Below, one piece after another: positions 9,618 to 21,839 of a DNA stretch of 64,000 nt (positions are counted from its first letter, which is position 1; the number at the start of each line of letters is the position of its first letter). The notes beneath the pieces are model-generated. The model searched no databases, was not told the DNA's origin, and worked only from the letters and a program-made list of their open reading frames with translations. The stretch is taken from positions 1 to 64,000 of the forward strand of contig JAFEDK010000014.1 in assembly GCA_018241665.1 (NCBI GenBank). The letters are read 5' to 3'. A program made the translations under genes and the position numbers. Source of the DNA: Pseudomonadota bacterium. Lineage in GTDB: Bacteria; Pseudomonadota; Gammaproteobacteria; Burkholderiales; Rhodocyclaceae.

Positions 9618-9708
9618 TGGCGGAGAGGGCGGGATTCGAACCCGCGTCAGGGTATTACCCTGAACACGCTTTCCAGGCGTGCGACTTAAACCGCTCATCC
9701 ACCTCTCC
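9618..9708 (-). tRNA. tRNA-Ser(GGA)
   Basis: The minus-strand sequence folds as a class II tRNA: acceptor GGAGAGG/CCTCTCC, T-arm GGGTTCGAATCCC and a long variable arm (TCAGGGTAATACCCTGA). The anticodon loop CTGGAAA sits on stem CACGC/GCGTG, so the anticodon is GGA (plus-strand 9672-9674). The discriminator is G and CCA is encoded (plus-strand TGG at 9618-9620). Confidence 0.96.
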
Positions 9709-9764: not shown

Positions 9765-11801
9765 TCACCTGTATCCCCCCTCGCCATCGGGCAGCCGCAC
9801 GAAGTCCACCAGGGCCTGCACCTCAGCCGACGGCGGCGGTGTCAGCAGGCTGACGACGGCAATGACGATGAAGCCCACCGGCACGCCGAAGACCCCGCAG
9901 GAGATCGGGTTGATGTCGAACCAGGCCGCCTCCATGCTGCCCCCGAAAAAGGTATGGGTACGCGCGATGTAGAACAGCGTCACCCCCAGCCCGGCCACCA
10001 TGCCGGCCACCGCGCCCCACTTGTTGGCGCGCTTCCAGAAGATGCCCAGCACCAGTGCCGGAAAGAAGGCCGACGCGGCGATCGAGAAGGCCAGGCCGAC
10101 CATGAACAGGATGCTGTCCGGCCGCATCGACGCCACCCATGCGGCCACTACCGCCACCACCAGGAGCTGGGACTTGGTGATCACCAGGCGGCGCTGGGTG
10201 GATGCATTGGGATTGACCATCTGGTAATACAGGTCGTGGGATAGGGCGTGGGAAATCGTCAGCAGCAGGCCGTCCGCGGTGGACAGGGCGGCCGCCAGAC
10301 CGCCGGCCGCCACCAGACCCGACACGACGTAGGGCAGCCCGGCGATCTCGGGCACCAGCAGCAGGATTGCGTCGCTGTTGATGGACAGTTCGGCCAGCTG
10401 GAGGATGCCGTCGCCGTTGATGTCCTCCACCCGCACCAGGCCCGTGCGTGCCCACGAAGCCACCCAGTGGGGCAAGGTCGCGATGCTGGAGCCGACCAGG
10501 TTGCTATAGACCTCCCATTTGGCAAAGACCGCGTAAGCCGGCGCCGTGAGGTACAGCAAGGAGATGAAGAACAGCGACCAGAACACCGAGTGGCGCGCCT
10601 CGCGGACGGTCGGCGTGGTGTAGTAACGGGTCAGGATATGCGGTAACGCCGCCGTGCCGACCATCAGCACGAAGCTCAGCGCGATGAAGTTGTTGCGCTC
10701 GCTGGCCTTGCTTTGCGCATCGGCCCCGGGGAAAGCCTCCGCATGGGCAGCCGGGTTGACTGAGCGCGCCAGGCTCTCCTGACGCACCCGCTCCCATTTC
10801 AGGCGCGCCTCGTCCGGCGTGCGCGGCAGGTCACGCAGGGCCCGCTCGGCGGCGGCGATCTCCCGCGCCGACGCGCCGGAGGTCCGCAATTCATTGACGC
10901 GCTGGATCTGCACGACGCGCTCCGCCGCCAGCGACTCCGGCAGGTCGACGATCTTCCGCGCATACTCTTCGGCCCGTGCCCGGTACTGGGCATGTACGGC
11001 ATTCTCCCGCGGCTCGGAGAACAGCTCGAGCTCCTTGACCCCCAGATCCTGCAACACCCGCCCGTACACCGCCTGGGGCACCGGCACGCCGGTGACCTTG
11101 TAGGACAGGATGGTCACCGGCACCAGGTAGGCGACGATCAGGATCACGTACTGGGCGACCTGGGTCCAGGTCACCGCCTTCATGCCTCCCAGGAAGGAGC
11201 ACACCAGCACGCCAGCCAGGCCGACGAACACGCCGATCTCGAACTCGATACCTATGAAGCGGCTGGTGATCAGGCCGACACCATAGATCTGCGCGACGAC
11301 ATACACGAAGCTGGCCAGCACCCCCGCAAACACCCCGACAACCCGCGCGAAATGCCCTTCGTAGCGCGCGCCGAGAAAGTCCGGAATGGTGAACTGGCCG
11401 AACTTGCGCAGGTAGGGCGCCAGCAGGATGGCCACCAGCACGTAGCCGCCGGTCCACCCGACCACGAAGGCCAGGCCTTCGAAGCCGGAGTAATACAGGG
11501 TGCCAGCCAGGCCGATGAAGGAGGCGGCGCTCATCCAGTCCGCCGCGGTAGCCATGCCGTTGAACATCGCCGGCACGCGGCGGCCGGCCACGTAGTACTC
11601 GGACACGTCGGAGGTGCGGCTCATCACGCCGATCGACGCATAGATGGCGATCGTCGCGAACAGGAAGATCTGCCCGATCCAGTGCGGCGTCAGCCCAAAA
11701 CGCTCGGCCACCGCCAGCAGGCTGACGAAGGCCACGAAACCAAGGGAATAGAGCAGGTAATAACGTCGAAGACGGCGGGAAAACGCGGCAAGGGAACTCA
11801 T
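9765..11801 (-). CDS. Large Na+/solute symporter of the VC_2705/ActP-like SSS subfamily
   Basis: 678 aa, longer than usual ActP (about 550). SSS core helices include the family signature near residues 75-100 (GRRVPAMFNGMATAADWMSA). Between helices 6 and 7 there is a charged, helical cytoplasm-like insert at residues about 245-365. Residues 460-471 (DINGDGILQLAE) form a perfect EF-hand/dockerin-type calcium loop in an extramembrane segment. Family and context suggest Na+-coupled uptake of acetate or another short carboxylate: the DUF4212 small subunit gene ends 12 nt upstream, and a CBS-DUF294 gene, a CrbS-like kinase and acs follow further upstream. It is the last gene of the leftward operon. 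The substrate is inferred from context. Confidence 0.88.
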   Translation of the reverse strand: MSSLAAFSRRLRRYYLLYSLGFVAFVSLLAVAERFGLTPHWIGQIFLFATIAIYASIGVMSRTSDVSEYYVAGRRVPAMFNGMATAADWMSAASFIGLAGTLYYSGFEGLAFVVGWTGGYVLVAILLAPYLRKFGQFTIPDFLGARYEGHFARVVGVFAGVLASFVYVVAQIYGVGLITSRFIGIEFEIGVFVGLAGVLVCSFLGGMKAVTWTQVAQYVILIVAYLVPVTILSYKVTGVPVPQAVYGRVLQDLGVKELELFSEPRENAVHAQYRARAEEYARKIVDLPESLAAERVVQIQRVNELRTSGASAREIAAAERALRDLPRTPDEARLKWERVRQESLARSVNPAAHAEAFPGADAQSKASERNNFIALSFVLMVGTAALPHILTRYYTTPTVREARHSVFWSLFFISLLYLTAPAYAVFAKWEVYSNLVGSSIATLPHWVASWARTGLVRVEDINGDGILQLAELSINSDAILLLVPEIAGLPYVVSGLVAAGGLAAALSTADGLLLTISHALSHDLYYQMVNPNASTQRRLVITKSQLLVVAVVAAWVASMRPDSILFMVGLAFSIAASAFFPALVLGIFWKRANKWGAVAGMVAGLGVTLFYIARTHTFFGGSMEAAWFDINPISCGVFGVPVGFIVIAVVSLLTPPPSAEVQALVDFVRLPDGEGGYR

Positions 11802-12153: not shown

Positions 12154-13575
12154 CTAAAGCTGGTAGCGCAGCGCGAGCAGCTGCTGCAGGTGGCGCCCCC
12201 GGCGGAAGGATTCCTTCAGGCGGGCCCGCTCCATCTCGTTGAGTTCCGCGGGCGCCACCAGGTTCGGCGGATGGGTGGCCGCCTTTTGCCGGCGCAGACG
12301 CAGCAGCTGGATGAAATCGAAAGCCTCCACCAGCGCCGCCACATCCCTCGGCGCCCAGCCGAGCGCGGCCCCCGCGGCCCTCAGGCGTCCGACCGTCGAG
12401 GTGTCGGCAATCCTGCAGGCCAGCGCCAGGATGCGCGCCGCATCGACAAAGGGCCGGCTGCCATCCCGCTTCAGATCAAGCAGACCGCTACGGCGATCGA
12501 CGACGAAATCGCGGATCCGGCCCAGCGGCGGCTCGCTGCTCAGCGCGTTGCCGGCCATGAAGCGCAGGAACAGGCCATTGTCGGCCGCACAGTCCAGCAG
12601 CCAGCGCATCAGGCCGGCGGCAAGCGTGGCGTCGCCGGCCAGCGCGCGCAGGTCGAAGAAGATGGTGCCGTTGAGCAGGCTTTCCGGATCGGCGGTGCAC
12701 ATCCATTCGGTAAACTGCCCCCGCCACTCGTCGACGGACAGGCACCACTGGGGATTGCCGGCCATGATTCCACCGCGGCACAGGGAATAGCCGCAGGCAT
12801 CGAGCAAGGCATTGACCCGCTGCGCAAAGGGCAGGAAGCGGGCGCGCAGCCGCCCGGCGTCTTCCTGCCCTTCCGGCAGGAAGATCAGGCCATTGTCCTG
12901 ATCGGTGGAGAGGGTCTGTTCCAGCCGCCCCTCGGAGCCGAAACCCAGCCAGCACCAGCGTACCAGTGGTAGCTCGAACTCGGCCTCGGCCAGTTCGATG
13001 GCCTTCTGCACGATCAGGTCGTTGAGGATCGAAATCCACTCCCCGAGTTGCTCGGCCCCCTCCCCCATCTCGACGCGCTCGCCCCCCTCCGCACGCAGGC
13101 GGCGCGCCGCCGCAGCCAGGGCATCCGCCCCATCCACGGCCTGGATCGTCTCGATCAGATCGTCGGTTGCCAGCCGTCCCGGGGCATACAGATCGCCACG
13201 GCACAGCACGCCAGCGAAACGGCCCAGCTCATCCACCACCACCAGATGGCGCAGATCGTGACGGGCCAGGGCCAGGCGGCCCTGGTGAACGCTGGCATCC
13301 AGCGGCAAGGCCACCACGCCGCCGGTCATGACGCCGGCGACCGCCGCGTCGAGGTCGCCAGCGGGCAGCGCGACGCGCTGCAGCGCATCCCGCTGGGTCA
13401 GGATGCCAAGCGGCAGGTCCGTAAGCGGATCAGTCACCACCACGCTACCGACCCGCTCGGCGCACATGCGCCCAAGGGCCGCGCGGACACTGGTCTCCGG
13501 CGACACCGCCACCGGCGCCCGGCGCAGCAGGGCCGCCAGGCTGGCGGCACGCACTCCCGTCACAGCCGTGCCCAT
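12154..13575 (-). CDS. CBS-pair / DUF294 nucleotidyltransferase-like signalling protein
   Basis: 473 aa. Two CBS motifs lie at about residues 15-130 (one contains ERVGSVVVTD and GILTQRDAL). A DUF294 nucleotidyltransferase-like domain follows at about 150-330, with GSEGRLEQTLSTDQDN carrying the GS...D-x-D type signature, and then the DUF294 C-terminal helical domain. CBS pairs usually bind adenosine nucleotides; the transferase-like domain resembles GlnD/PII uridylyltransferases. It has no cyclic-nucleotide domain at the N-terminus, unlike some relatives. The gene recurs next to this symporter type and a DnaQ-like exonuclease in proteobacteria. Role in regulating acetate transport or metabolism is inferred; the target is unknown. 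Confidence 0.85.
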   Translation of the reverse strand: MGTAVTGVRAASLAALLRRAPVAVSPETSVRAALGRMCAERVGSVVVTDPLTDLPLGILTQRDALQRVALPAGDLDAAVAGVMTGGVVALPLDASVHQGRLALARHDLRHLVVVDELGRFAGVLCRGDLYAPGRLATDDLIETIQAVDGADALAAAARRLRAEGGERVEMGEGAEQLGEWISILNDLIVQKAIELAEAEFELPLVRWCWLGFGSEGRLEQTLSTDQDNGLIFLPEGQEDAGRLRARFLPFAQRVNALLDACGYSLCRGGIMAGNPQWCLSVDEWRGQFTEWMCTADPESLLNGTIFFDLRALAGDATLAAGLMRWLLDCAADNGLFLRFMAGNALSSEPPLGRIRDFVVDRRSGLLDLKRDGSRPFVDAARILALACRIADTSTVGRLRAAGAALGWAPRDVAALVEAFDFIQLLRLRRQKAATHPPNLVAPAELNEMERARLKESFRRGRHLQQLLALRYQL

Positions 13576-13587
13576 GGGTCGCCGGCC

Positions 13588-15753
13588 TCAGTACTTGACC
13601 CGCGCGTAATAGGTTTTCTCGGACGCACGGCGGGCTTCGCCAAGCGTCCGGATACCCATTTCGGCCAGCAACGGGATCATGCGCAGGAACACCTCGCCGG
13701 TGACGATCGCGTCACCCAACGCGGTGTGCCGCCCCATCACGCTGACCCCCATGCGCTCGCTGATCGCCTCCAGGCGGTGGGATTCCTGGGATGGATGCAG
13801 CACCGCCGACAGCAGCAGGGTATCGAGCACCGGTTGCGCGAAGCGGATGCCGGTACTGGCCTCCTTGAGCTGCAGGAAGCGCATGTCGAAGGCCGCGTTG
13901 TGGGCCACCAGCACGGTGTCCTCGGCGAAGGCGTGGAAAGCCGGCAGCACCTTGCCCATCGCCGGCTGGCCAGCCAGCATGTCGGGCGTGATGCCGTGGA
14001 TCTTGATCGACTCTTCCGGCAGGCCGCGCTGCGGATCAACCAGCTGGTCGAAGGACTCGGACTTGCGCAGCTTGCCATTGACGATGCGGGTCGCGCCGAT
14101 CTGGATGATCTCATCCCCTTCCGACGGGTTGAGCCCGGTGGTCTCGGTGTCGAAGACCGTGAAGGTCAGTTCCGACAACAGGCAGTCGTCCAGTTCGTGG
14201 CTTGCCGGAGTCTGCTTGAACAGGTCGAAGTCGTAGTACTCCGGCCGGCTGTCGCCCTTCAGGTAGGCCGCCGCCTCGATCTGCTCCTGGGGGATCGCCG
14301 ACGGCAGCAGCAGGCGGAAGAAGGCGCGATGCTGAGTCTTTTCCCGCTGCAGCCAGATCTCGCCGTCGTGGCGCTCGACGACATCGCGCACCGTCAGCGG
14401 CGAGTTCTCGCCGGCGAAAGTCATCGGTTCCAGCTCCCAGGCCATCACCGTCTCGGTGCTCATCGCCTGCCCCGACCAGATCAGGTCCAGGTGGGCCAGG
14501 CGCCCGGCCGCACTGAGGCGGAAGCGCACCTCGCGCACCTCGAACTCTTCGGACAGGCGGCTGGCCAGGTAGCCGATGGCCTGCAGCAGCGAAAAGCTGT
14601 CCACCTTCACCCACACCTGCGGGTCCACATCCTCCAGCTTGGTGGGCAGACCGAGCTTCTTCTCGATGCGCCGCTGGGCCGCGGCGATCAGATCGGCCCC
14701 CAGCATCTCGTCGAGGGGCCAGCGGGTCTTGAGGGAGTCGGCGAAGGCATTGGCGGTCTCGTCAAGGCGCGTGCTCATGCCCTGCACTTCGTCGCGGATG
14801 ACCTTCAGGAAACGGTCCTTCAATTCGGCATCGAGATCCGGATACTCCAGCATCTCCGCGGCCGCCCGCAGGTTGGCCAGGGACGAGCGGCTGCCCTCGG
14901 TGAGGGTGTGCAGCATCTGGTCGCGGCGGGTCTCGACCTCGAAGTTGCGAGTGATGTTGTCGAGCATCAGCACGAAACCCGACATGGCCGGCTCGCCCTC
15001 CGCTTCGCCGCTGCCCAGCACCGGCGCCATCTGCACGCGCAACAGCTGGCCGGCGCGGGTGGTGGTGACGAAATTCGCCACCGGCTGCGCGCTGCGCCGG
15101 CGGATGCGCTCCTGGATGCTCTCCAGCGCATGGGTGATGAGGCTGCGTTCGAAGACCAAGTAGATCGAGCGGCCGAGGCCGATGATCTCCCCACCTCCCG
15201 CCGCCGTCGGGGTGTCCGACATGGCCTTGAACTGCAGGCGGGCGCGGTTGTTGTAGAGCAGGATGCGGCCGTCGAGATTGCACACGACGACGCTCTGGCT
15301 GAGCTCGGACATCAGCGCCGCCAGCCGGTTGCGCTCTTCCTCCACTGAGCGACGCGCCTCGCCGATGCGGGCCTCCACGTCCTCCTGCAGGCTGCGCCGC
15401 TGGTCGGCCAGCTGATTGACCGACTCGGCAATGCGCTGCAGCTCCGGCGAGCCCAGCGGCTTGAGACGGCGGGCCGGATCGGTGCCGACGATCAGCCCGA
15501 CCTCGTCGGCCAGTTGCGCCGGCGCCGCGAAGGCCGCCTCCGCAAAGGACTTCATCAGCACCGCAGCCGCCCCCGCTCCGACCAGTCCGATCATGATCAG
15601 CAGGCCGATGCGGGGGTTTAGGATGGGCTCCAGCACCTCGCGCTCGGCGGGTGCGAGATCGCGCCAGAGGGCGACGCCAGCCACCGCCAGGACGCCCACG
15701 ACCAATGCGCAGGCGGCCAGGATCGCCAGCCCCTGCCTGGATTTGACACTCAC
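13588..15753 (-). CDS. Degenerate histidine-kinase-like protein fused to a DnaQ-type 3'-5' exonuclease
   Basis: 721 aa. Two membrane helices at about residues 8-30 and 48-70 come first, then a coiled coil at about 110-150 and a PAS-like domain at about 145-270. Residues about 275-345 look like a DHp helix pair, but the H-box position reads LTEGSRSSLANLRAAAE, with no phosphorylatable His. Residues about 385-490 resemble an HATPase fold without clear N, G1 and G2 boxes. The C-terminus (about 525-700) is a DEDDh exonuclease with D535, E537 (FDTETTG), D623 (HNAAFDM), H676 and D681 (HTALGD). The nuclease active site looks intact, while the kinase looks catalytically dead. It sits between the receiver and CBS-DUF294 genes of the acetate locus. 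Substrate unknown; it is probably not the replicative epsilon subunit. Confidence 0.85.
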   Translation of the reverse strand: MSVKSRQGLAILAACALVVGVLAVAGVALWRDLAPAEREVLEPILNPRIGLLIMIGLVGAGAAAVLMKSFAEAAFAAPAQLADEVGLIVGTDPARRLKPLGSPELQRIAESVNQLADQRRSLQEDVEARIGEARRSVEEERNRLAALMSELSQSVVVCNLDGRILLYNNRARLQFKAMSDTPTAAGGGEIIGLGRSIYLVFERSLITHALESIQERIRRRSAQPVANFVTTTRAGQLLRVQMAPVLGSGEAEGEPAMSGFVLMLDNITRNFEVETRRDQMLHTLTEGSRSSLANLRAAAEMLEYPDLDAELKDRFLKVIRDEVQGMSTRLDETANAFADSLKTRWPLDEMLGADLIAAAQRRIEKKLGLPTKLEDVDPQVWVKVDSFSLLQAIGYLASRLSEEFEVREVRFRLSAAGRLAHLDLIWSGQAMSTETVMAWELEPMTFAGENSPLTVRDVVERHDGEIWLQREKTQHRAFFRLLLPSAIPQEQIEAAAYLKGDSRPEYYDFDLFKQTPASHELDDCLLSELTFTVFDTETTGLNPSEGDEIIQIGATRIVNGKLRKSESFDQLVDPQRGLPEESIKIHGITPDMLAGQPAMGKVLPAFHAFAEDTVLVAHNAAFDMRFLQLKEASTGIRFAQPVLDTLLLSAVLHPSQESHRLEAISERMGVSVMGRHTALGDAIVTGEVFLRMIPLLAEMGIRTLGEARRASEKTYYARVKY

Positions 15754-15796: not shown

Positions 15797-16171
15797 TCAA
15801 GCGGGAAGCTCCAGCAGGGCCTTGACCTTGGCTACCAGCTCCCGTGTGGAGAAAGGCTTGGTCATGTAGGCATCGGCCCCCATCGCCAGCCCCTTGGCCA
15901 CCTCCGTCTCCCGCCCCTTGGCGGTCAGCATCAGGATGCGCGTGCCCTGCAGCGCGGGCTCGGCGCGGATTTCCTGGCACACCTCGTAGCCGTTCTTGCG
16001 CGGCATCATCACGTCGAGCAGCACCAGGTCGGGCGACTCGCGGCGCGCCAGATCGAGGGCTTCCTGCCCGTCGCTGGCGATGCACACCTCGAAGCCCTCG
16101 CGCTTCATCAGGAATTCCAAGGAAATGACGATGTTCTGCTCGTCATCGGCTATCAGTATTTTTTTAGTCAT
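15797..16171 (-). CDS. Single-domain response regulator (receiver only)
   Basis: 124 aa and only a CheY-like receiver: acidic pocket D9/D10, phosphoacceptor D53 (LVLLDVMMP), T83 and K105 (TKPFS). There is no DNA-binding or enzymatic output domain. It follows the SLC5-type histidine kinase on the same strand (74-nt gap) and precedes the kinase-like/exonuclease fusion (43 nt). The kinase is its likely phosphodonor. In Vibrio and Pseudomonas the CrbS kinase partners with CrbR, a LuxR-type DNA-binding regulator, so this partner differs and must signal by protein contact or pass phosphate on. Confidence 0.93.
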   Translation of the reverse strand: MTKKILIADDEQNIVISLEFLMKREGFEVCIASDGQEALDLARRESPDLVLLDVMMPRKNGYEVCQEIRAEPALQGTRILMLTAKGRETEVAKGLAMGADAYMTKPFSTRELVAKVKALLELPA

Positions 16172-16245: not shown

Positions 16246-18999
16246 TTATCCTGCCTCATCTTTCGTTTCTGTTGATTTGCCGCAAGGCAACAAAAACGAG
16301 AAACACGCGCCCTCCCCCGGCGTGCTGTCGACCCACAGCCGACCGCCATAATGCTCGACGATCTGCCGGCTGATCGGCAGGCCGAGGCCGGTTCCCTGGG
16401 GCTTGTCGGTCATCGCATCGCCGCCCTGTCGGAACTTCTCGAAAACGATGGCCTGCTCCTCGGCGCTCAAGCCCGGACCATTGTCGCGCACATCGACCCG
16501 CAGCCCCCCGGATGTTTCGCGCAGGGCGATCGTCACCCGCCCCTTGCCCTGGGCGACGAACTTGACCGCATTGGACAGCAGGTTCAGCACCACCTGCACG
16601 AGGCGGTCCCGATCCGCCAGCAGCAGCGGGATGTGCCCGGGGAGCTGAACCGCCAGGTCGACCTTGCGGTCCTTGAAGAGCTGGCTGGTGGCCGCCACGG
16701 CCTGCTCTACCACCTCGATCAGGCTGACCTCCCCGTTGTGCCACTCGGCGTGGCCGGCTTCCAGCTTGGCCATGTCGAGGACCTGATTCACCAGGCGGGT
16801 CAGGCGTTCGGCCTCGCTGACGATGATGCCCAGGAAGCGCGTCCGGTCGGCCACGTCGATCTCCGGATCCTCCAGCAACATTTCGGAAAAGGCGCGGATC
16901 GAGGTCAGCGGCGTGCGCAACTCATGGGTCACCGACGACATGAAGTCATCCTTCAAGCGATCCACCTCCTTGAGACGTTCGTTGGCGGCGCTCAGTTCTC
17001 GGGTGGCCGCCTCGAGTTCCTGGGACTTCTGTTCCAGGCGGTGGGAATAGGCCAGGATCTGGGAGGCCTCGTCGAGGATGTTCATCACCTCGTCGATGCC
17101 CAGCGGCTCCTCTTGCACGACGGAGGCCACCATGACCCGCGCCGAAGCACTGCCGATGGCCCCCGCCAGGGTCGTTTCGGCAAAGTGCACGAGGGCCGCA
17201 TCGGCCTGCAAGGCCTCCACTCCAGTAACCCCGCGGCTCTCCGCATAGTCGGCGAACACCTTGTAGGCCCGCTCCCGGCCGATGAAGCGCCCGATCAGCG
17301 GCAGCAGATCCTTGACGTGAGCACTACCGCGCCAGAAGGCCTCACCGTCGGGGCGCGTCTGCTTGAAGACGTCCACGAACAATGTCGCCTGCCCGGCTTC
17401 CACCGCATTCGGACGCCGCCGCAGGGAAACCCAGACATAGGCAGCGATGTTCGCCAGCAGACTCCAGTACAGGCTGTGGGCAATCGGATCGATGCCCTGC
17501 AGACCGAACAGCTCCTGCGGGCGCAGGCTCTCGATGCCGAACAGGCCGCTGCGCAGGAAATCCGCCGGCAGCCAGCCCGACTTGGCGAAGGACGGCAGCA
17601 GCAGCGTATACAACCAGACGGCAAAGCCGCAGGACAGCCCCGCCAGCGCCCCGCTCCGGGTCGCCCCGTGCCAATACATGCCGCCGAACATGGCCGGCGC
17701 AAACTGGGCCACCGCGGCAAAGCTGATCAGCCCGATGCTGACCAGCGCGTGGGCCTCGCCGGCGAAACGGAAGTACAGATAGCCGAGCAGCAGGATCAGC
17801 ACGATCGCCCAGCGCCGGATGCCCAGCAGGACGCCGGACAAGTCGGCCTCACCCTGCAGCGGCAGCCACCGGTAGCGCAGCAGGAAAGGCATCACCAGGT
17901 CGTTGCAGACCATTGTCGATAGCGCGATGGTCTCGACGATCACCATCCCTGTGGCTGCCGACAGCCCGCCGATGAACACCAGCAGGGCCAGCCAGCCATC
18001 GCCAAAGGCCATCGGCAGCGTCAGCACGAAGGTATCGGCATCCACGTCGCGCCCGGCGAAATGCATCAACCCACCCAAGGCGATCGGCAGCACGAAGATG
18101 TTGATCAGCAGCAGGTACAGCGGGAACAGCCAGATGGCCCGGCGCAGGTGATTCTCGTTGACGTTCTCCACGACCCCCACCTGGAACTGGCGCGGCAGGA
18201 ACATCAACGCCAGCATGGACAGCAGGGTCATCGCAAACCAGCTGCCATAGCTGTTGCCGCTGGCGCCCATGGTCATCAGGCGCGCCAGCCCGGGGGTTGC
18301 GGCCGCACGGGAGAACAGATCCGCAAAGCCGTCGAAGATCCCGAAGGTGACGTAGGCACCGACGGCCAGGAAGATCAGCAACTTGACCAGGGACTCGAAA
18401 GCCACCGCCGCGACCATCCCTTCGTGGCGCTCGGTGGCGTCCAGGTGACGGGTACCGAAGAGGATCGTGAAGGCCGCCATGATCAGCGCGATGTACAGCG
18501 TCGTATCCGTCAGCCAGGGCATGTTCGCGGTCTTCGGCGGCATGATGATCGCCGGATACTGGATGAGGATCGCAAAGCTGGTGGACAGCGCCTTCAGTTG
18601 CAGCGCGATGTACGGAATCACGCCGAGCACCGCGATCACTGTCACGAGGCCACCGAGCAGATGGCTCTTGCCGTAGCGGGACGCGATGAAGTCGGCGATG
18701 GAGGTGATCCGCAAGGTCTTGCTGATCCTCACCATCTTCAGCATCACGAACCACCACAGCCCGACCATCAGGGTCGGGCCGAGGAAGATCGGCACGAAGC
18801 CGAAGCCCGACGAGGCGGCTCGCCCGACACTGCCGTAGTAGGTCCAGGTCGTGCAGTACACCGCCAGGGACAGGGCGTAGATGGAAGGATGGGCGATGAG
18901 CGAACGGCCCGCATCCGCCCGCTTGTCGCCCACATATGCCACTGCAAACAGCAGCAGCAGATACAGGAGGGACACGACGACGACCATGCTGCCGGTCAT
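16246..18999 (-). CDS. SLC5-symporter-like sensor histidine kinase (CrbS/CbrA type)
   Basis: 917 aa. Residues about 1-500 form a sodium/solute symporter-like bundle of about 12-13 helices with YCTTWTYYGSVGRAA near residue 50. A cytoplasmic linker and coiled coil (QELEAATRELSAANERL) lead to the kinase core. The core has an H-box with SVTHELRTPLTS, N-box NLLSNAVKF, G1 DNGPGL, F-box KFRQG and G2 GTGLGLP, so it looks fully active. In Vibrio and Pseudomonas, CrbS senses acetate-related signals and controls acs, and CbrA controls carbon use. The adjacent acs gene and acetate-type symporter support a CrbS-like role here. It is encoded after a 63-aa membrane protein on the same strand. Confidence 0.92.
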   Translation of the reverse strand: MTGSMVVVVSLLYLLLLFAVAYVGDKRADAGRSLIAHPSIYALSLAVYCTTWTYYGSVGRAASSGFGFVPIFLGPTLMVGLWWFVMLKMVRISKTLRITSIADFIASRYGKSHLLGGLVTVIAVLGVIPYIALQLKALSTSFAILIQYPAIIMPPKTANMPWLTDTTLYIALIMAAFTILFGTRHLDATERHEGMVAAVAFESLVKLLIFLAVGAYVTFGIFDGFADLFSRAAATPGLARLMTMGASGNSYGSWFAMTLLSMLALMFLPRQFQVGVVENVNENHLRRAIWLFPLYLLLINIFVLPIALGGLMHFAGRDVDADTFVLTLPMAFGDGWLALLVFIGGLSAATGMVIVETIALSTMVCNDLVMPFLLRYRWLPLQGEADLSGVLLGIRRWAIVLILLLGYLYFRFAGEAHALVSIGLISFAAVAQFAPAMFGGMYWHGATRSGALAGLSCGFAVWLYTLLLPSFAKSGWLPADFLRSGLFGIESLRPQELFGLQGIDPIAHSLYWSLLANIAAYVWVSLRRRPNAVEAGQATLFVDVFKQTRPDGEAFWRGSAHVKDLLPLIGRFIGRERAYKVFADYAESRGVTGVEALQADAALVHFAETTLAGAIGSASARVMVASVVQEEPLGIDEVMNILDEASQILAYSHRLEQKSQELEAATRELSAANERLKEVDRLKDDFMSSVTHELRTPLTSIRAFSEMLLEDPEIDVADRTRFLGIIVSEAERLTRLVNQVLDMAKLEAGHAEWHNGEVSLIEVVEQAVAATSQLFKDRKVDLAVQLPGHIPLLLADRDRLVQVVLNLLSNAVKFVAQGKGRVTIALRETSGGLRVDVRDNGPGLSAEEQAIVFEKFRQGGDAMTDKPQGTGLGLPISRQIVEHYGGRLWVDSTPGEGACFSFLLPCGKSTETKDEAG

Positions 19000-19569: not shown

Positions 19570-21528
19570 TTACTTGAGTTGCTCGAGGATCGCCGGGTTC
19601 TCCAGCGTCGAGGTGTCCTGGGTGATTTCCTCGCCCTTGGCCAGCTGACGGAGCAGACGGCGCATGATCTTGCCGGAGCGGGTCTTCGGCAGGTTCTCAC
19701 CGAAGCGGATGTCCTTCGGCTTGGCGATCGGGCCGATTTCCTGGCCAACCCAGTTCTGCAGTTCCTTGACCACCTTGGCGGCTTCGTCGCCGGTCGGACG
19801 CGCACCCTTGAGCACCACGAAGGCCACGATGGCTTCACCGGTCAGATCGTCCGGACGGCCGACCACGGCAGCTTCGGCCACCTTCTCGTGGGCCACCAGG
19901 GCGGATTCGATTTCCATCGTGCCCATGCGGTGACCGGAGACGTTCAGCACGTCGTCGATACGGCCGGTGATGGTGAAGTAGCCGGTGTCCTTGTCGCGGA
20001 TCGCGCCGTCGCCCGCCAGGTACAGCTTGCCCTGGAAGTCGGCCGGGTAGTAGGACTTCACGAAACGGTCCGGATCGCCCCAGATGGTGCGGATCATGGA
20101 CGGCCACGGACGCTTGACGACCAGGATGCCGCCCTGGCCCCAGGGCACTTCGGTACCGGTCTCGTCGACCACCGCGGCCTGGATGCCCGGGAAGGGCAGC
20201 GTGCAGGAACCGGGGATCAGCGGGGTGGCGCCGGGCAGCGGAGTGATCATGTGGCCGCCGGTTTCGGTCTGCCAGAAGGTATCGACGATCGGGCAGCGGC
20301 TACCGCCGACGTTCTCGTAGTACCACTCCCAGGCAGCGGGGTTGATCGGCTCGCCGACGGAACCCAGGAGGCGCAGGCTGGACAGGTCGTAGTTCTTGGG
20401 ATGCACGGCCGGGGTGTTGTCCGCAGCCTTGATCAGGGAACGGATGGCGGTCGGCGCGGTGTAGAAGATGTTGACCTTGTGGTCCTGGATCATCTTCCAG
20501 AAGCGGCCGGCGTCCGGGTAGGTGGGCACGCCTTCGAAGACGACTTCGGTCGCGCCGCAGGCCAGCGGGCCGTAGGTGATGTAGGTGTGACCGGTGACCC
20601 AGCCGATATCCGCCGTGCACCAGAAGACATCGTCCGGCTTGATGTCGAAGGTGTACTTCATGGTCAGGATGGCGTGCAGCAGGTAGCCGCCGGTGGAGTG
20701 CTGGACACCCTTCGGCTTGCCGGTGGAGCCGGAGGTGTAGAGCAGGAACAGCGGGTGTTCAGCTTCGACCCATTCCGGTTCGCAGACGTCGGACTGCTGG
20801 GCGAGCAGGTCATCAGCCCAGATGTCGCGACCGGCGACCATGGCGGTTTCGCCGCCGGTGCGCTTCACGACCAGCACGCTCTTGATGGTCGGGCAGCCGC
20901 TGGCCAGCGCTTCGTCGGCGATGGACTTGAGCGGGAGGGCCTTGCCACCGCGGTTCTGGCCGTCGGAGGTGATCAGCAGCACGGCGCCGGCATCATTGAT
21001 GCGGTCGGCCAGCGACTGCGCGGAGAAGCCGCCGAAGACGATGGAGTGGGTGGCGCCGATACGGGCACAAGCCTGCATCGCGACGACGCCCTCGATGGAC
21101 ATCGGCAGGTAGATGACGACGCGGTCACCCTTCTTGACGCCCTGGCTCTTCAGCGCATTGGCGAACTTGCTGACGCGGCCCAGCAGGTCGGAGTAAGTGA
21201 CCTTGGTGATGTCGCCCTTGTCGCCTTCGAAGATCAGCGCGACCTTGTCGCCGAGACCGTTCTTGACCTGGCGGTCGAGGCAGTTGTAGGAGACGTTCAG
21301 CTTGCCGTCGGCAAACCACTTGAAGAACGGAGCATTGCTCTCGTCAAGCACCTGGGTGAAGGGAGTCTGCCAGTCGATCAGCTCCTTGGCGCGCTTGCCC
21401 CAAAAGCCTTCGTAGTCCTGATCGGCCTCGGCGCACAGCGCCTTGTACGCTTCCATGCCCGACACGGCAGCGTTCTTGACCACCTCTTCGGACGGATAGT
21501 AGAACTTCTGGGTGGTTTCGCTCGTCAT
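19570..21528 (-). CDS. acs: Acetyl-CoA synthetase (AMP-forming)
   Basis: 652 aa, the standard Acs length, from the ATG at 21528 ([20 protein letters not shown]) with GGAGAGGTG 6 nt upstream; the open frame extends further but without coding character. The enzyme converts acetate, ATP and CoA to acetyl-CoA, AMP and PPi in the cytosol. Visible motifs are the P-loop-like [15 protein letters not shown], the WWQT-equivalent [10 protein letters not shown], and the C-terminal [11 protein letters not shown] with the lysine that is regulated by acetylation in well-studied Acs enzymes. It is monocistronic, with a terminator downstream, and lies upstream of a CrbS-like kinase operon with an acetate-type symporter, so control by that two-component system is likely. 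Confidence 0.97.
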
Positions 21529-21839
21529 TTTTTCACCTCTCCTCGTGTTATTGAGTGTGCAACTTAGCTTGCGATAAAACCTTGGCTGGGTGGGGAGCAA
21601 GACCTTTGGGGCGCGCCTGCTTCTAGTGGCTTTTTCTGGCGGGCCGATCCTGTCTCCGGGCGCCATTAGAAGTTATCAATCTTACACATGACTTACACCT
21701 GCTCCAGCCAGGCCCGGCAGGACATGCCGGGTGCGTCGATCCCTCACTGTCGCAAGCCGCCTCATCCATCACCATGCCATTTTCAATCAAACACTTTTGT
21801 CATAAACTCAAATGACATAACCCAACCATTGCCGACGTC
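21529..21839. other. Divergent promoter region between acs and the secretin operon
   Basis: 311 bp without a gene. The acs side (about 21529-21660) holds the ribosome site and an AT-rich leader. The secretin side is AT-rich from 21775 to 21830, against the high-GC background. It holds the inverted repeat TGTCAT-N8-ATGACA at 21798-21817, 22 bp before the start codon. I could not fix a promoter with confidence on either strand. Confidence 0.45.
21798..21817. promoter_or_regulatory. Inverted repeat upstream of the secretin gene, operator candidate
   Basis: TGTCAT-AAACTCAA-ATGACA is a perfect 6-bp inverted repeat with an 8-nt spacer, centred about 32 bp before the ATG. It fits a dimeric regulator or a hairpin over the leader. 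It does not match the CRP or FNR consensus. Confidence 0.35.

Follow-up and report, generated by a model that had tools for sequence, protein, structure and literature searches.

Why would a membrane-anchored protein combine a histidine kinase core that lacks the phosphorylatable histidine with a DnaQ-type exonuclease, and why is it encoded directly behind a receiver with no output domain? The question is raised by a gene at positions 13588..15753 (minus strand) of contig JAFEDK010000014.1 from a member of the Rhodocyclaceae (Pseudomonadota; assembly GCA_018241665.1, 5.4 Mb in 55 contigs), whose first 64,000 nucleotides form the stretch analysed here, the window. The product, referred to as the fusion, runs from a membrane anchor through a PAS-like domain and a dead kinase module, with DHp (dimerization and histidine phosphotransfer) and CA (catalytic and ATP-binding) parts, to a DEDDh exonuclease, and its gene follows those of a CrbS-like sensor kinase and a receiver-only protein. 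Comparison of related genes indicates that the DHp helices persist almost only alongside the partner receiver, which suggests a signalling pathway ending in a nuclease and not in a gene switch.

Architecture of the fusion protein

The frame spans 721 residues from a GTG start, with GGGAGG, a plausible ribosome site, 7 bases upstream, and all of its parts lie on the minus strand. Two hydrophobic helices (residues about 8-70, 15544..15732) with a short loop between them were read by eye and are helices in the AlphaFold2 (AF2) model. They are followed by a long helical or coiled segment (residues 71-149, 15307..15543), seen by AF2 and HAMP-like by Pfam in 5 of 66 family members, and by a PAS-like domain (residues 150-266, 14956..15306) placed by AF2 and by PAS_4 matches in relatives. 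The kinase-like module comprises a DHp-like two-helix hairpin (residues 268-337, 14743..14952) and a CA/HATPase-like domain (residues 348-486, 14296..14712), both placed by structure matches and alignment, and the DEDDh 3'-5' exonuclease-type domain occupies residues 525-700 (13654..14181).

Taken singly, the fusion sequence matches HisKA at E 0.39 (residues 277-331) and PAS_4 at E 0.08, both below the Pfam cut-off. Across the 66 family members PAS_4 is matched at E<=0.1 in 49 (best 3.5e-05) and HisKA in five (best E 0.00098), and the family profile matches the histidine kinase VicK (4i5s) at E 8.5e-11, with the best stretch at 247-490. The AF2 model of the full-length protein has a pLDDT (predicted local distance difference test) of 78.9 and a pTM (predicted template modelling score) of 0.40, and in VIA only exonuclease-fold entries, at residues 519-712, were among the 50 matches listed for it. 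Because of this, a separate model of residues 265-492 (pLDDT 83.0, pTM 0.68) was used to test the kinase fold, and all 50 Foldseek and all 50 VIA matches listed for it have a histidine-kinase-type core, among which we count ChpT and LvrB. Residues 265-492 are predicted on this basis to carry a DHp and CA histidine-kinase fold. The first-pass annotation of this DNA, made from the letters alone, had described two membrane helices, a PAS-like domain and a His-less DHp/HATPase-like region, and all of these stand.

The motif LTEGSRSSLANLRAAAE starts at residue 284 of the fusion. Profile-profile alignment of the dead module with the core of the adjacent CrbS (hhalign probability 98.9, E 1.2e-17, 212 columns, 20% identity) identifies the two as distant relatives, and places Glu286 (14896-14898) opposite the CrbS phosphoacceptor His692, which is His in 81 of 81 CrbS rows. 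Distinct fusion genes are counted here as those not identical over their last 600 residues, with near-identical congeners retained. Among the 147 that were aligned the position holds Glu in 114, Asp in 14, Gln in seven, Pro in five, Thr in two, and Ala and Met in one each, with three gaps, such that His occurs in none of the 144 genes having a letter there; across 92 loci, which include the window's own copy, the counts are Glu 81, Asp 7 and Gln 4. By comparison with CrbS, both Asn residues of the N box are replaced, DNGPG has become IWSGQ and the GTGLGL region is missing, with loss of the N, G1 and G2 boxes. An active HisKA-type kinase is ruled out by the loss of the phosphoacceptor His and of these ATP boxes. 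Arg289, three residues after the His position, is Arg in 141 of the 144 genes, and invariant residues span the dead module.

The exonuclease domain matches RNase_T (PF00929) at E 5.2e-35 over residues 533-689, and the five catalytic residues D535, E537, D623, H676 and D681 are all present where the annotation had placed them. They are kept in 146, 146, 145, 145 and 145 of the 147 distinct genes respectively, the remainder being gaps, and are thus retained in every uncut gene, those lacking a receiver included; 20 distant fusion genes likewise keep all five. By its profile match and catalytic residues the exonuclease looks intact, and it is predicted to act in the 3'-5' direction, presumably on the 3' end of DNA or RNA. 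Matches to PADLOC sit on the DEDDh and receiver domains, with a weak coiled-coil match in addition; we take these as generic and do not adopt a defence-gene interpretation.

The kinase-like fusion had been thought uncommon, and this did not survive a wider survey: it is common and conserved. It is present in 40 of 398 Pseudomonadota genomes, its own included, as judged by a match to the kinase-like part (43 genomes matched, of which G097, G101 and G184, with frames of 513-579 residues and E-values of 4.4e-6 to 5.8e-7, were dropped), and many of the 40 fall in a different class, probably Alphaproteobacteria. A pattern scan of genome contigs gave at least 574 stretches encoding relatives, and the titles of the 80 loci kept from these point to Betaproteobacteria, with a few Gammaproteobacteria, Thiothrix among them. 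The fusion was not named in any open-access title or abstract opening found, a weak negative.

The frame is open over residues 1/2-721 in 20 of 22 same-genus genomes, the exceptions being one cut across two contigs (G001) and one split over two frames (G014); the intact frame rules out a chance or assembly fusion. A broken second copy with several stop codons is present in one genome (G006:C8:38380-39850). G506 (L208/L215) and G507 (L209/L214) naturally encode versions that consist of the membrane helices, PAS and exonuclease and from which the kinase-like module is absent.

The receiver and the DHp hairpin

The receiver-only protein (124 residues, 15797..16171, minus strand; Pfam and alignment) is encoded immediately upstream of the fusion, and the genes for CrbS, receiver, fusion and a CBS-DUF294 protein follow one another in one direction, separated by 74, 43 and 12 bases. 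Of the 150 distinct fusion genes, 135 have a receiver-only gene immediately before them, 11 lack one, one has a diverged receiver and three are cut; the definition was a match of at least 100 bits in a frame of under 420 residues, with L015, L019 and L040 assigned by hand, and four of the 11 negatives were set by hand and then seen in a longer stretch. The kinase is present in 85 of the 92 loci and the receiver in 89, all but L020 (at a contig end), L074 and L078. At 20 distant loci the receiver adjoins the fusion in 19 (one at only 77 bits) and a kinase match of at least 890 bits is present in 14. The gene order is crbS-receiver-fusion in betaproteobacterial loci and receiver-fusion-crbS in many others, and the receiver still immediately precedes the fusion when crbS lies on the far side or in another place, L130, L131 and L140 being cases in which crbS is not adjacent. 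Because the position of crbS varies, the receiver and fusion genes form the tighter unit.

The receiver looks phosphorylatable, with D53 and K105 in all 133 aligned rows, D9 in 130 and D10 in 131. Its helix 1 (N13, I14, S17, L18, E19 and L21) is kept in 130-132 of the 133 rows, and helix 1 is the face that meets the DHp in complexes of histidine kinases with response regulators.

The loss of the receiver in some genomes also bears on its relationship with the fusion. Each domain was scored against a profile built from receiver-bearing genes with under 75% identity, and the DHp score was regressed on those of PAS, CA and exonuclease, using 132 of the 135 receiver-bearing genes (L065 and L206, cut by contig ends, and L208, the G506 gene, were left out). 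The lowest DHp residual among the 132 is z -3.15, and those in genomes without the receiver are -8.2 (G307), -8.1 (G553), -6.7 (G665), -12.5 (G187) and -7.2 (the L074 genome); in three further receiver-less genomes (G507, G203 and G100) the DHp is deleted. All eight genomes in which no receiver of this kind was found thus have a decayed or deleted DHp, compared with one (G506) among 138 genes that have the receiver. Genome searches found neither a receiver at E<=1e-27 nor a CrbS at E<=1e-90 in G307, G553, G665, G507, G203, G100 and G187; in the L074 genome there is no CrbS at 1e-60, and the best receiver, at 90 bits, is at background (the second-best receiver of the window's own genome scores 88). 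Same-genus relatives of G203 and G100 have the receiver between CBS-DUF294 and the fusion, and it is from exactly this place that the two genomes lack it. Where the receiver is elsewhere in the genome the DHp is normal (z -0.5 in G490, +1.1 for a second copy in G443 and +0.4 in the L078 genome), and these three genomes have both receiver and CrbS elsewhere. On a tree built from the remaining domains (a single midpoint-rooted FastTree run, with support of 1.0 and 0.99 for the two multi-member loss groups) the DHp is lost six separate times, and five of these events are in lineages without the receiver.

These patterns lend indirect support to the earlier proposal that the receiver could bind the dead-kinase module. 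On the simplest interpretation, the DHp hairpin serves the receiver (or CrbS) as a docking place and is kept while the partner exists, whereas the exonuclease would be of use to the cell regardless. By its pattern of loss the fusion is evolutionarily tied to the receiver/CrbS pair. The alternative of an ordinary fusion, a vestigial kinase joined to a housekeeping DnaQ-like nuclease with no signalling link, has in its favour that DEDDh exonucleases are common, with several in the genome under study, and that the kinase motifs are clearly lost; it fits poorly with invariant residues throughout the dead module, with the stable receiver neighbourhood in distant genomes and with the correlated decay of DHp and receiver, and we regard it as very improbable.

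Several observations weigh against the docking reading. The G506 genome keeps receiver and CrbS, and its fusion has neither DHp nor CA. Raw DHp scores of receiver-less genes are 0.40-0.94 where the hairpin is not lost (-1.29 in G187) and overlap those of receiver-bearing genes (minimum 0.40, 5% point 1.00), because distant genes score low everywhere, and the contrast is seen only in the residual. Other domains are affected in some of the same genes: CA is low in G665 (z -2.8), G203 and G100 (-3.1 and -3.2) and deleted in G507, and PAS is low in G187, G203, G100 and G507; the G203 and G187 assemblies are about 75% complete. Covariation between receiver and fusion (mutual information with average product correction, 132 pairs) is not enriched in the DHp, with receiver-DHp pairs at 0.18-0.76 of expectation among the top 25-200 pairs and the PAS and membrane part at 1.1-2.0, which gives docking no support; the columns of the likely interface show little variation, and phylogenetic signal probably prevails. 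Finally, the receiver and short CrbS are jointly missing in all eight receiver-less genomes, and the data are therefore silent on which of the two the DHp contacts.

This joint loss leaves room for a RetS-like arrangement, in which the dead DHp complexes directly with the active DHp of CrbS and the receiver serves CrbS alone. The distant relationship of the dead module to the CrbS core and the presence of RetS among the structural matches of the 265-492 model would both fit. The receiver is found upstream of the fusion even at L130, L131 and L140, where crbS is not adjacent, and one genome separates the two candidate partners: G299 (L119/L132) has a diverged receiver (77 bits) beside the fusion and only a long CrbS, its DHp is retained at z -2.5, and receiver helix 1 and DHp are both changed. 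We consider direct contact with CrbS unlikely. The G506 and G507 genes speak for a different arrangement, in which control of the exonuclease rests with the membrane and PAS part by itself, the dead kinase acts as a dimerization spacer and the receiver link is minor, since these are natural membrane-PAS-exonuclease proteins without DHp and CA, and that of G506 still has its receiver. A mere spacer does not account for the fall of five of the six DHp losses in receiver-less lineages, nor for DHp scores that are as expected in receiver-bearing genes, and we think it improbable.

The CrbS branch and the CrbR regulator

The kinase of the window (917 residues, 16246..18999, minus strand) has a symporter-like region by homology followed by HisKA and HATPase domains. 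No Response_reg match was found in it with Pfam, and its HATPase ends at residue 906; long CrbS forms match it at about 40-49% over roughly residues 3-660, and that of L143, the only long form scanned, has a C-terminal receiver domain. CrbS matches at E<=1e-100 are present in 166 of the 398 genomes, and a form was assigned for the 139 listed, sorted by frame length (long being at least 1150 residues) and not by domain scan. As a query for CrbR we used a Response_reg and LuxR-type regulator adjoining a long crbS, with a cut-off of 1e-50 chosen after viewing the score spread. At this cut-off CrbR is absent from all 52 genomes having only the short form, 25 of which have the fusion, and present in all 76 having only the long form, one of which has the fusion; the 11 genomes with both forms all have CrbR, and seven have the fusion. 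The weakest match among the 87 genomes with a long CrbS, all positive, is 3.1e-51. Fisher tests on these counts take related genomes to be independent, and their values are not to be read as probabilities. The window kinase thus appears to belong to a branch of CrbS that lacks the receiver domain and for the most part is not paired with CrbR. The CrbS receiver domain is described as dispensable for acs activation in V. cholerae and Pseudomonas (PMC5436829), and the absence of this domain from the window kinase is therefore compatible with signalling.

Some of the figures soften this picture. At E<=1e-30 a CrbR-like match is found in 12 of the 52 short-only genomes, and two of these lie near the cut-off (G336 at 6.0e-48 and G361 at 8.6e-47); the window's own genome has a best match of E 2.3e-36, and a distant functional equivalent may exist. 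Even at 1e-30, no CrbR match is found in 22 of the 25 short-only genomes that carry the fusion. The fusion is absent from 27 of the 52 short-only genomes, and it is therefore not the sole output of the short-CrbS branch. At L160, L161 and L162 a short CrbS has an adjacent receiver gene, confirmed by Pfam for L160, and no fusion in the fetched stretch; in the case of L160, a fusion lies on a different contig of its genome (G314).

Stand-alone RNase_T-type exonucleases lie near CBS-DUF294 in two long-CrbS loci (L158:15029-15784 and L159:659-1909), and the genomes concerned (G418 and G125) also hold the fusion elsewhere, with two separate CrbS-tied exonucleases per cell. These match the fusion at just 42 and 37 bits, and we do not group the fused and stand-alone exonucleases of CrbR loci as one close family at this level of similarity, no tree having been made.

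The remaining neighbours, all on the minus strand, vary more. The CBS-DUF294 gene (12154..13575, by Pfam) and a VC_2705-family sodium/solute symporter (9765..11801, by family match), 352 bases beyond it, differ among loci in presence, place and orientation. An upstream acetyl-CoA synthetase-type gene (19570..21666; ACAS_N and AMP-binding by Pfam) was found in 30 of the 92 loci, many of which are too short to show it. At L047, L054, L059, L067, L072 and others the fusion is separated from the full CBS-DUF294 gene by an additional DUF294 stretch, which has no CBS half and starts at about query residue 140-181 and ends at 473. A tRNA-Ser (GGA) is located at 9618-9708 of the window, just downstream of the symporter gene.

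Related systems and a proposed pathway

A close parallel is with DivL and DivK of Caulobacter. DivL, in which the His is replaced by Tyr, is reported to bind phosphorylated DivK through the docking surface used between histidine kinases and response regulators, with a requirement for an Arg at the third position after the His, and is described as having neither kinase nor phosphatase activity; the DivL-DivK model uses residues in the receiver helix 1 region (PMC4211667). The fusion similarly has a histidine kinase fold, a replaced His, a poor ATP site, a PAS domain in front, a receiver-only partner and the corresponding Arg (R289), and the co-loss of DHp and receiver is consistent with its likewise binding a receiver. 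It differs from DivL in having Glu at the His position, a fused exonuclease as output in place of the kinase CckA, and a carbon locus in place of the cell cycle.

DivL is also said to stabilise phosphorylated DivK (PMC4211667), which would suit a reverse flow of information, in which the fusion senses through its PAS and membrane part, the dead DHp holds or shields the phosphorylated receiver and so tunes CrbS, with no gating of the exonuclease by the receiver. Genes that have lost the receiver keep the exonuclease, which thus has a role without it, as such a flow would allow, whereas a mere titrating module would not need the catalytic residues that all uncut genes keep; we find this rather unlikely.

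Two other proteins with kinase-like cores used for binding, NifL and RetS, are both among the structural matches listed, and act by protein contact with NifA and GacS respectively; unlike the fusion, neither has a nuclease. DEDDh domains of the PolC, DinG and DnaQ epsilon types occur in replication or helicase proteins, whereas that of the fusion would be tethered to the membrane behind a dead kinase. The locus as a whole resembles those of CrbS/CrbR (MxtR/ErdR) in having a symporter-fused kinase beside an acs-type gene, a symporter, CBS-DUF294 and a DEDDh exonuclease, but its kinase has no C-terminal receiver, and a receiver-only protein and fused exonuclease are found instead. In P. putida, deletion of pp_0353 is reported to impair growth on 20 mM pyruvate but not on 20 mM acetate, and the gene is in an operon with the ErdR target pp_0354, with the mechanism left open in that account (PMC9927547). 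PP_0353 is, like the fusion, an RNase_T-type exonuclease with a paired CBS protein and a link to C2/C3 carbon use; it is set apart by its description and not by sequence, that account describing transcriptional control and no PAS or kinase module. The pyruvate phenotype is an independent reason to link this type of exonuclease with C2/C3 carbon use.

We propose that the CrbS lacking a receiver domain would sense a carbon state, of the acetate or pyruvate type, and phosphorylate the stand-alone receiver, which would then dock on the DHp hairpin of the membrane-bound fusion. The change from His to Glu would block onward transfer of the phosphate, and docking, together with input from the PAS and membrane part, would alter the conformation of the dimer and gate the C-terminal DEDDh exonuclease. 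We infer the signal, phosphotransfer, docking, gating, nuclease activity and substrate alike within this CrbS-receiver-fusion pathway, and judge the chain from CrbS through receiver and dead DHp to a gated exonuclease to have an even chance of being correct. The fusion itself is best explained as the protein through which a two-component branch with no DNA-binding regulator in the locus exerts its output. A bolder formulation, in which the phosphorylated receiver, acting on a His-to-Glu pseudokinase, switches membrane-bound trimming of 3' ends and replaces the CrbR switch in many Pseudomonadota, is more tentative, and we place it somewhat below an even chance.

Beyond the first-pass annotation, which had already noted the receiver beside the fusion, a pairing now seen across the survey, we find that the fusion is common, that the neighbouring kinase is in a CrbS branch mostly without CrbR, and that receiver and CrbS are lost jointly. 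What appears new is a CrbS without a receiver domain and mostly without CrbR, the pairing of receiver and fusion, and a loss of the DHp that seems to track the loss of receiver and CrbS.

The known outputs of two-component systems consist mostly of DNA binding, second-messenger enzymes and protein contacts, and a nuclease in this role would, if true, add a new class of response. Because some genomes have the receiver and others lack it, they offer a natural genetic test of how a dead kinase would read a receiver. The fusion also provides a handle on what the CrbR-less branch of CrbS controls, and on the recurrence of exonucleases in acetate and pyruvate loci, which the P. putida work leaves open (PMC9927547).

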